Shown piece by piece: positions 2,059-3,846 of a stretch of DNA of 12,213 nucleotides. Below the pieces are notes generated by a model. The model saw nothing but the letters and a program-made list of their open reading frames with translations. It did no database searches and was not told the DNA's origin. A program made the translations under genes and the position numbers. Where the stretch lies: the NCBI GenBank assembly GCA_946480995.1, contig CAMLMF010000035.1, positions 1-12,213 of the forward strand, in the 5' to 3' direction. Positions within the stretch are counted from its first letter, which is position 1; each line of letters begins with the position of its first letter. This DNA comes from an uncultured Bdellovibrio sp. (GTDB taxonomy: Bacteria > Bdellovibrionota > Bdellovibrionia > Bdellovibrionales > Bdellovibrionaceae).

Positions 2059-2901
2059 ATGTCAGTTCAGGCCGGAGAAAGTTGGATTCACGACAAGTAC
2101 AAGTTCTTCGGTCTGTCTTTATCAGGCATCCGCACTGCCATAGCGATGCCTGAGTTGTCCTTAAGCTTCGATGTCGCTCAGGGATATCCGTTTCTTTTAA
2201 ACTTAAAGCATTTCTTTATCTCCCACGGCCATCTTGATCATGCGGCTGGAGTTCCGTATATCATTTCGCAAAAAGCGATGAACTCCCAAGACGCTGGCAA
2301 CTTCTATATGCCACCTTCGCTGGTGGAACCTTTAGATAAAATCATGAAGCTGTGGCAAGAAATCGAAAAGCACGAATACAAATACAACTTCATCCCAGTA
2401 ACCCCAGGTCAAGAATTTCACTTGAACGCGCAAACCTTCGTAAAAGTTTTCGCCACAACCCACCGCGTGGAATCTTACGGGTACACCGTTTTTGAAACCC
2501 ACAAAAAACTAAGATCCGACCTTGCAGGCCTAAAACAAAACGAAATCGTCCAACTGCGCCGCGAAGGTAAAGAAGTTAACGAAACACATCACATTCCCGC
2601 AGTAAGCTTCACCGGAGACACACAAATAGAGTTTTTAGAAAGCTGCGACTGGATTAAAAAATCCAAGATCCTTTTTTTAGAAGCCACCTATTTAGACGAA
2701 AGAAAAACCATCGCCCAGGCAAGACAATGGGGCCACACCCATTTAGAAGAAATCATCCCAAGACTAAAAGACCTAGAATGCGAAAAGATCGTCTTCATCC
2801 ACGCATCAAGCCGCTATTCTGACAAAGAAGCCCTAAAAATCCTGCAAACAAAAATCCCCAAAGAATACCACGAACGCATCGCCCTATTCCCCGGCCGCTA
2901 A
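2059..2901 (+). CDS. Metallo-beta-lactamase-fold hydrolase, tRNase Z-like
   Basis: A 280-residue cytoplasmic protein with the full metal-site layout of the RNase Z branch of the MBL fold: HGHLDH at 56-61 (H56, H58, D60, H61), H135 in TTHR, D187 in SFTGDT, the EATYLD strand (209-213) followed by GHTH (225-228), and H248 in IHASSRYS, the last resembling the THFSSRY box of tRNase Z. All expected ligands are present, so it should be an active metal-dependent hydrolase. tRNase Z removes the 3' trailer of precursor tRNAs. The family's flexible arm is not obvious, although the segment at 143-175 (charged, Lys-rich) could be a reduced version or a substrate-specific insert. It starts 6 bases after the reductase stop with only a weak ribosome site (TAGGTAG), suggesting translation coupled to the upstream gene. 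Length is shorter than full RNase Z (about 300). It could be a phosphodiesterase-like relative with a different substrate. Confidence 0.75.
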   Translation: MSVQAGESWIHDKYKFFGLSLSGIRTAIAMPELSLSFDVAQGYPFLLNLKHFFISHGHLDHAAGVPYIISQKAMNSQDAGNFYMPPSLVEPLDKIMKLWQEIEKHEYKYNFIPVTPGQEFHLNAQTFVKVFATTHRVESYGYTVFETHKKLRSDLAGLKQNEIVQLRREGKEVNETHHIPAVSFTGDTQIEFLESCDWIKKSKILFLEATYLDERKTIAQARQWGHTHLEEIIPRLKDLECEKIVFIHASSRYSDKEALKILQTKIPKEYHERIALFPGR

Positions 2902-2910
2902 AACAAAAAA

Positions 2911-3134
2911 AAGAGAATTCCTTGATCCACTATCGGAACGCCGATTTAAGGTTGGGTATTTGAAAATACCTGATCGAAAGGAGGCCTTCGTGGGCGCCAC
3001 GATGGCGCGCATCCGACAGCGAAGCTGGCGGACCACGATTGAGCATGGATGCGTGCCGACTGAAGCATCAGGTATTTTCAAATACCCAACCTTAAATCCC
3101 GCGCGGGCCCGAGAGCGGACCCCAGGAATCTCTT
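2911..3134. repeat. 224-bp fold-back (long inverted repeat) element between convergent genes
   Basis: The interval between two convergent genes is a large inverted repeat. The inner arms, 2943-2974 and 3067-3098, are perfect reverse complements over 32 bases. Each inner arm also contains its own hairpin, GGTATTT-GA-AAATACC on the left and its complement on the right. The outer arms, 2911-2942 and 3099-3134, are diverged reverse complements sharing in order AAGAGA, TTCCT, TCC, CT and TCGG, with a few small indels. Together this gives terminal inverted repeats of about 64 bp around a 92-bp GC-rich spacer. The heptamer TAAAACA occurs outside both ends (2899-2905 and 3134-3140) and may be a target-site duplication. 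I could not recognise the element. It could be a MITE/REP-like dispersed element, a structured RNA, or a bulky bidirectional terminator, although no long T-run follows it. No credible gene lies inside. Confidence 0.85.
2975..3066. other. Structured spacer of the fold-back element
   Basis: The spacer between the 32-bp arms is GC-rich and full of nested hairpins: CGAA/TTCG (2975-2978 with 2987-2990); GCGCCA-CGA-TGGCGC (2994-3008); CCG-A-CAGC-GAA-GCTG-G-CGG (3013-3031); and GCATCC (3009-3014) with GGATGC (3047-3052), extendable to 9 bp with one G-T pair. This density of pairing suggests that folding of an RNA or single-stranded DNA matters. The strand is not decided, and I match it to no known RNA family. 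Confidence 0.45.
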
Positions 3135-3846
3135 AAAACATGTCGTTGAGATCCAACCAAAGCTTCCGAGTTTTCATCTTCTTCGTCTTAAGGTACTCAA
3201 CCCAGTCCATAGCACTGCGTTTCTGCCAACTTTCAGCCAAGTTCGCTGCAAAAATCAACGGACCATAACCTTGTCCCATGATTTCTTTCGGCGGACGAAG
3301 AGCTGTTAACATCTCAGGACCATAAAAGGCCGTTGGCATCAAACGATCACGCTCTGACAATTCACCGATAATCAAAGCTCCATGGGTTTGCCCCAATAAA
3401 GTTCTGCTTAAAGGACCCGACGCTTCCGAAGGCTTCGGTGCCCCGGCAGAGCCCACAACAACTAAACCCGAATCTGCTTTTTTATTAAGCAGCTCAAGCA
3501 CCGCACGATTGTCATCATTAATACGGAAATTAAAATCAAAAAAGACGAAACTTGTGCCAGCAGGCAAAGACTCTAGCCGCTCATGCAAAGCTTCCATGTC
3601 CACTTCGCCGACTTTATTGTAGGGCGTATAGTTGACGATTTCGCAGTTTTTGCAGGGACGAGATTTTTCTAAGAAAAGAGGTTTGATTTTAAGCTCAAAC
3701 TCTTCTGCGCGCTGCTGACCGAAATAGATCACCGTGGTTTTCGTGGACGGCACGGACGCCTGCGCCCATGTTGCTCCGCAAGACAACGTCATTAACGCAG
3801 TCCAAAGAATAATTTTTTTGAAATTCCAGAAATTGCACTTAGTCAT
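3133..3846 (-). CDS. Exported protein of unknown role with a degenerate subtilase-like C-terminal half
   Basis: 237 residues beginning with a clear Sec signal peptide (basic MTKCNFWNFKK, hydrophobic IILWTALMTLSCGATW, cleavage probably after AQA at 30), so periplasmic or secreted. A C-x-x-C pair (C65, C68) may form a disulfide. Residues 124-205 follow the order of the C-terminal half of S8 subtilases: a strand like the one before the oxyanion Asn (SGLVVVGSAGAP, where Asn would be A135), a VGA-like strand with charged turn (ALIIGELSERDRLM, 157-170), a YGPE segment (175-178), and GYGPLIFAANLA (193-204) in the place of the GTS-AAP motif. The catalytic Ser is not there and no Asp or HGTH motif is seen upstream, so if the relationship is real this is an inactive relative. 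The start has a poor ribosome site (a G-rich run 11-15 bases upstream), but it is the ATG that gives an intact signal peptide. The subtilase link is my reading by eye and unproven. Confidence 0.7.
   Translation of the reverse strand: MTKCNFWNFKKIILWTALMTLSCGATWAQASVPSTKTTVIYFGQQRAEEFELKIKPLFLEKSRPCKNCEIVNYTPYNKVGEVDMEALHERLESLPAGTSFVFFDFNFRINDDNRAVLELLNKKADSGLVVVGSAGAPKPSEASGPLSRTLLGQTHGALIIGELSERDRLMPTAFYGPEMLTALRPPKEIMGQGYGPLIFAANLAESWQKRSAMDWVEYLKTKKMKTRKLWLDLNDMF

Follow-up and report, generated by a model that had tools for sequence, protein, structure and literature searches.

A dispersed hairpin element of Bdellovibrio that accompanies an IS1-like transposon and whose arms change on both sides

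Fold-back element between two convergent genes

The window, by which the whole analyzed stretch of 12,213 nucleotides from an uncultured Bdellovibrio sp. is meant, contains a fold-back structure that occupies the gap between two convergent open reading frames (ORFs), at 2059 to 2901 on the plus strand and 3133 to 3846 on the minus strand. The product of the left ORF belongs to the metallo-beta-lactamase superfamily, and its RNase Z-like match stays under the cut-offs. The right ORF had no family match in either of two family libraries. Elsewhere in the window, positions 760 to 2052 strongly match the FabMG enoyl-ACP reductase family (PF22046, E = 4.5e-198).

The inner arms of the structure (2943 to 2974 and 3067 to 3098) are 32 nt each, 100% complementary and spaced by 92 nt. 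They are continued by outer arms (2911 to 2942 and 3099 to 3134) that the fold and the arm alignment identify as degraded complements; outer and inner parts together, aligned arm against arm, have 82% identity over 68 columns. An earlier note on this DNA had described the perfect inner arms, the worn outer arms and the filling of the convergent gap, and all three were confirmed. Its statement that each inner arm is also self-complementary held weakly in the window, where a 6-bp hairpin lies within the arm and 2% of 200 shuffles were as good, and failed as a feature of the family described below (mean z of −0.16 over 241 copies; −0.19 for control flanks). The predicted RNA fold of 2890 to 3160 was −115.8 kcal/mol on the plus strand (z = −8.1) and −127.2 kcal/mol on the minus strand (z = −9.2), with 0 of 200 shuffles as good on either strand.

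Between the arms sits a branched conserved core. The covariance model R1, built from the family, hits the window once, at 2969 to 3075 on the plus strand with 91.3 bits, and this match covers the core and the first arm pairs. In the consensus fold, helix P3 (2988 to 2993 with 3033 to 3038) encloses hairpin P1 (2994 to 3008), which is also placed by the model match, and hairpin P2 (3012 to 3032), which is folded with a GAA triloop and a C-G closing pair. A short hairpin, P4, lies at 3043 to 3052.

The element is probably slightly larger than 2911 to 3134, at about 2906 to 3133 on the plus strand, with uncertain ends. These 228 bp between the two genes are without a coding gene and lie between two TAAAACA repeats, a candidate 7-nt target-site duplication that is possibly a chance match. 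The left repeat (2899 to 2905) overlaps the left gene's stop codon, and the right repeat (3134 to 3140) the right gene's 3' end. At 2921 to 2936 on the plus strand, CTTGATCCACTATCGG resembles by eye the terminal repeat AACTGATCCACTAGACTGG of transposon copies in genome G013.

A dispersed family in Bdellovibrio

BLASTN with the element found copies in 19 of 59 related genomes. When set in one orientation, the copies have a core of about 100 nt in common and differ in their arms. The consensus fold of 35 cores contains 21 pairs, for 15 of which one or more sequences showed a change of both partners. Model R1 of this branched core was built from a plain MAFFT alignment, which shows the same covariation pattern, and gave at least 336 matches in 24 of the 59 genomes, with up to 31 per genome. 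This number is a lower bound, summed by genome with at most 68 candidates scored in each; genome G013, when searched singly, gave 19 matches versus 17 in the 59-genome scan. The count of copies in Bdellovibrio relatives had been set beforehand as a test by the earlier note, and its outcome indicates that the element is not a single-copy local duplication. Twenty-two of the positive genomes fall within G001 to G024, in which only G004 and G005 were without a match. Outside that set, G030 had one weak match and G036 had four.

The analyzed set (n = 241) consisted of the window copy and 240 further copies, mostly higher-scoring ones. Repeated places were removed before counting, and L130 was excluded, its core and 40-nt flanks being identical to those of L129. 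The arm-pairing tests (155 and 154 copies) and the shared-arm test (157 copies) were done on earlier, smaller copy sets.

BLAST searches of the element against 50,697 phage records and 72,556 plasmid records gave no match, and searches of viral contigs with two exact core patterns gave 0 hits each. The literature on Bdellovibrio repeats, miniature inverted-repeat transposable elements (MITEs) and terminator insertion, searched with coverage of few subscription papers, yielded no account of this family.

Filled and empty sites

The sole relative found in the named genome collection was a Bdellovibrio metagenome-assembled genome (MAG) with a protein 93% identical to that of the left gene. In this MAG the left and right genes lie almost end to end and the element is absent. 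Among 19 orthologous sites (the window and 18 others), an R1 match was present in four, namely, the window, L173 of G002, L174 of G019 and L175 of G009. In the remaining 15 the genes lie close together or have a small terminator in common. A further copy at the same site, L132, belongs to G020, a genome outside the 19-site set.

Filled and empty states of orthologous sites could be compared directly for the window versus L001/L171 and for two copies of G002, L105 and L195, picked among the G002 copies without an ortholog copy in G019. The sites of these two in G019 are clean and empty, so that insertions of 235 and 376 bp are seen, with overlaps of 6 and 8 nt that lie within an A-tract.

IS1-like transposon with the same hairpin

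Four copies in G013 have up to 1.23 kb in common, two of them with internal deletions. These long copies contain transposase pieces and have AACTGATCC or AACTGGTCC as inverted ends. Direct repeats at the ends, judged by eye, are 10 nt in L048 and 7 nt in L051, and none is clear in L046 and L047. With two of the transposase pieces, tblastn found stretches beside the hairpin at 7 loci of G010, G011 and G013. Intact transposase reading frames encode 291 amino acids (L021) and 298 amino acids (L035). The best model for both was NF033558, IS1 family transposase (E = 1.9e-14 and 54.1 bits for L021; E = 2.5e-9 and 37.4 bits for L035). Both scores are under the cut-off of 100, and the transposase is therefore called IS1-like and not filed as a member of the IS1 family. 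Against Pfam, searched twice, the transposase had no more than weak matches, to helix-turn-helix families and to unrelated ones. The earlier note had found nothing it could name in the element; this no longer stands, since the hairpin accompanies an IS1-like transposon.

Transposase homologues at E ≤ 1e-15 were present in 31 of the 59 genomes. Most copy-rich genomes, among them G003, G006, G012, G018, G021, G022 and G024, had no match at this threshold. An R1 match lies directly past the transposase stop codon at 4 of 30 homologue loci (L281 to L284, in G010, G013, G011 and G014), indicating that the hairpin is a feature of a subgroup within the IS1-like elements; at the other 26 loci there was no R1 match. 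Three of these four genomes are those in which tblastn found transposase adjacent to the hairpin. The core and the conserved end motifs are common to the small elements and the transposase-bearing element, and the outermost repeat of the window copy is by eye only a partial match to the transposon end. Judged from these sequence comparisons, the window copy would most simply be an IS1-like derivative without a transposase gene.

Placement of the copies

Copies were often placed between convergent genes (88 of 237, versus 69 of 291 other gaps longer than 60 nt at the same loci), as the earlier note had envisaged for a dispersed element. The right-hand gene pointed at the element more frequently than at other gaps (133 of 291 for the latter; the count for the copies is given below), and divergent placement was rare (30 of 237 versus 87 of 291). 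The ORFs for these counts were called mechanically, and 13 of the 237 copies overlap a long ORF.

In 46 of 241 copies, a terminator with its T-tract facing the 3' end of the element was found 20 to 80 nt from the core; the corresponding numbers were 1 at 80 to 140 nt and 2 in the complement control. Left-side terminators numbered 17 and 12 and were more spread out. The profile over the 241 copies showed no sharp T-tract at a fixed distance. Direct repeats of at least 8 nt at the ends occurred in 39 of 238 copies versus 21.7 expected, and a control region was similarly enriched (21 versus 11.4), so these repeats are no evidence for a family-wide target-site duplication.

The arms were also considered as guides to the target, as in RNA-guided, bridge-RNA-like insertion. 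This idea was rejected, as the arms had no excess match to their own flanks: 0 of 232 exceeded the 99% control at 60 to 170 nt, and 4 of 232 did so at 200 to 1200 nt, where 2.3 were expected.

Two-sided change in the core

Evolution of the core was followed in two alignments, A3 and A4, with 90 and 84 distinct rows. Both were fitted to model R1 and hence lean towards its structure, in which 99.3 and 99.4% of helix cells were a standard pair. Two-sided changes numbered 275 in A3 and 298 in A4, 573 together, versus 4 and 6 one-sided changes, 10 together. A-C cells made up 0.11 and 0.17%, and G-U cells 0.21 and 0.40%. The RNase P RNA control, which comprised 24 sequences from 30 loci with a predicted structure, mostly from the same genomes (three from outside G001 to G024, namely, G025, G045 and G046), had 201 two-sided versus 87 one-sided cells and 8.1% G-U. 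The ratio of one-sided to two-sided change was thus 0.015 to 0.020 in the core and 0.433 in RNase P RNA.

The P2 loop is a triloop in 211 of 235 copies and is closed by C-G in 220; the GNA type accounts for 112 and AAA for 77. Triloops of the GNA type and AAA suit DNA hairpins. The two-sided change with almost no G-U, together with the triloops, favors a fold or copying at the DNA level over RNA selection. These patterns point to a hairpin that may be kept by DNA-level folding or by DNA-level copying (template switching). The data fit selection for the folded DNA as well as template switching.

Change of the arms

For 148 of 154 copies, the 40 nt flanking the core outdid 99% of swapped controls in pairing with the opposite side. 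Within a genome the inner arms are nearly copy-specific, yet mutually complementary. Some common arm stretch was found in 58 within-genome pairs, 37 of them in G006 and 13 in G013; among 40 of the 58 pairs listed, the stretches outside G013 were largely the conserved end motif by eye.

Close ortholog pairs were kept when the mean flank identity was at least 84%, which left 64 of 120. These 64 have copies in common and hence are not independent, and the pairs of L076 with L204 or L205 and of L263 with L258 may be neighbours and not true orthologs. Among the arm cells that are Watson-Crick in one species, 2129 were unchanged and 152 were gapped. In another 174 both sides had changed to form a different Watson-Crick pair, in 40 both sides had changed otherwise, and in 246 only one side had changed (65 G-U, 56 A-C and 125 other). 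Both-sided changes were thus seen in 214 cells, versus 73 after shuffling within pairs. The 174 two-sided Watson-Crick changes consisted of 89 transversions and 85 transitions, and this absence of transition bias speaks against a route through G-U, which would favor transitions. The one-sided changes (125 transversions and 121 transitions) were common, indicating that copying between arms is not immediate.

By arm identity, both arms were kept in 28 of the 64 pairs, 30 were intermediate, both arms were replaced in 4 and one arm was replaced in 2; two of the 4 involve L076 and one of the 2 is L263/L258, and these are the doubtful pairs named above. In L116 and L124 the 3' arms are identical and the 5' arms are different. 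Over 32 nt, the L116 5' arm exactly complements its own 3' arm. Next to the core, the outgroup L153 has the L124 form. This single case may be read as one arm having been overwritten by the other.

Concerted arm change at one locus was seen in L173, L174 and L175 at the orthologous site of the window and also in L106/L118 and L159/L206. The outer flanks of L173 to L175 are alike, and the matched segments on both sides differ. L173 and L174 have the same inner arm, L174 and L175 the same core type, and L173 and L175 the same outer arm.

Complementarity also extended past the asymmetric element ends, at 40 to 100 nt in 41 of 154 copies and farther out at 60 to 160 nt in 21 and at 100 to 200 nt in 10, where about 1.5 were expected. 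In a minority of copies (L068, L076, L083, L108 and others) the inverted similarity of the flanks runs for about 100 nt or more past the ends. Plain insertion or template switching accounts poorly for the complementarity past the ends, part of which may be due to terminal repeats and paired terminators.

Interpretation

It is likely, in our judgment, that the element derives from a Bdellovibrio IS1-like insertion sequence as a MITE-like form without transposase, that it has spread by transposition and that its hairpin is kept at the DNA level. The full transposon would carry a long branched hairpin between the transposase stop codon and its right end, and the small derivative would retain the ends and the hairpin. 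Moved presumably by the IS1-like transposase, the element would often insert at gene 3' ends, within an intrinsic terminator's A/T tract, as suggested by its position, the two empty sites and the short A/T-rich repeats. During replication the hairpin probably takes the form of a cruciform or of folded single-stranded DNA, and one arm would then be copied onto the other by short-range template switching, so that the arms could change wholly yet remain paired. The branched core may be preserved by that copying, by selection for the folded DNA or by both, and the hairpin may have a role in transposition or as a transcription barrier. This reading is weakened by the transposase scores under the IS1 cut-off, by the R1 match at just 4 of 30 transposase loci, by the copy-rich genomes without a transposase match, by the partial match of the outermost repeats, by end repeats no more enriched than in the control region, by the frequent one-sided arm changes and by the complementarity past the ends. 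The proposal of the earlier note, recent exchange or selection on the inner stem, was roughly right and can be sharpened to two-sided change at the DNA level that includes both arms and core. A bolder version, which is possible but doubtful, is that the hairpin is a working DNA part of the IS1-like transposon, a cruciform or folded single strand that serves the transposase or replication. The arms would then be rewritten as a pair by fold-back synthesis while the element transposes or is replicated, and each copy would be left with its own self-matched arms. If true, this transposon structure would be of a new kind, one in which arm renewal is built in.

Ectopic gene conversion or re-insertion could make template switching unneeded if arm-core-arm cassettes were swapped among copies. 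Arms and core do differ as a block between the close orthologs L159/L206 and L106/L118, and the conserved ends and core common to the copies could start recombination. Against this, the inner arms are nearly copy-specific in each genome with no donors among the copies analyzed, and in L173 to L175 arm segments change with the core constant and vice versa. Conversion is therefore unlikely as the full explanation, and it could explain part of the arm replacement. It is quite unlikely that the element is a structured regulatory or 3'-end-protecting RNA that is incidentally mobile and whose pairing is kept by RNA selection. The strong RNA fold predicted on both strands, the strong covariation and the right-hand gene pointing at the element in 160 of 237 copies would suit such an RNA. 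The scarcity of G-U cells (0.2 to 0.4% versus 8.1% in RNase P RNA), the low ratio of one-sided to two-sided change (0.015 to 0.020 versus 0.433) and the two-sided arm changes without transition bias argue against it, and Rfam gave two matches, both far below the gathering score (the best with 17.7 bits versus 105). An ordinary bidirectional intrinsic terminator between convergent genes, locally enlarged, would fit the convergent position and the A-run left of the window copy. It is very improbable in view of a dispersed homologous family linked to a transposon, the absence of a sharp T-tract at a fixed distance and the right-side terminator, which, where found, is a separate hairpin beyond the element.

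Relation to known systems

Like MITEs, the element is small, gene-less, intergenic and dispersed, and its hairpin, probably with its ends, is common to a transposase-bearing copy; unlike them, its hairpin has a branched core, and its arms are copy-specific and complementary to each other. We know of no MITE with such arms, and the literature search gave none either. IS1 makes 8- to 9-nt duplications in A/T-rich DNA. The NF033558 match, the A/T-rich insertion sites and the 7- to 10-nt repeats in some copies agree with the IS1 family, whereas the parent transposase is under the curated cut-off and a long structured hairpin stands between its stop codon and the right end.

REP/REPIN elements are palindromic, dispersed and extragenic, often at the 3' ends of genes, and REPs go with RAYT transposases. 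The present element is also palindromic, dispersed, extragenic and often near gene 3' ends, but it is longer and branched, and its association is with an IS1-like transposase. Group IIC introns sit at the T-tracts of intrinsic terminators, as this element often does; in contrast to them, it is about 230 bp long, linked to a transposase, oriented with its 3' end facing the terminator and without an Rfam intron match.

The family is an abundant Bdellovibrio repeat tied to a likely parent transposon. Compensatory change in a stem is usually read as a sign of RNA selection, and covariation scans could call DNA elements such as this one RNAs. Template switching as a source of compensatory change has already been published (PMC8794818). 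The two-sided changes without G-U steps and the arm that becomes the exact complement of the other resemble the template-switch (quasi-palindrome) mutation described there; in that report it is proposed for RNA genes (PMC8794818), whereas the present case concerns a presumably mobile DNA hairpin that exists in hundreds of copies. With hundreds of natural hairpin copies and orthologs in close species, the template-switching idea is directly testable in a bacterium.

Variants and arrangements of copies

Several copies depart from the common form. In G013, the weak R1 matches L057 to L060 and L062 (33 to 42 bits) stand apart visibly as a subfamily (GGGATC..GGCAGGCATGGATGCCTGCGACCGCC) whose arms, next to the core, are long and perfect. 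L286 of G020, downstream of a transposase, resembles the other copies by eye in its ends and in having matched arms, which enclose a different core, and the core may be an exchangeable module. A smaller palindromic insert is nested inside the core of 6 of the 241 copies, in 4 genomes (L006, L042, L056, L064, L160 and L203). It consists of a AATAGCAGGATGCTATT-like hairpin and a second hairpin and is a repeat family in its own right. Where a locus holds two copies (e.g., L068, L093, L098 and L139), the order was minus then plus in 20 of 20 loci, some of which are orthologous to each other; the 5' sides of the two copies are thereby turned inward and the 3' sides outward.
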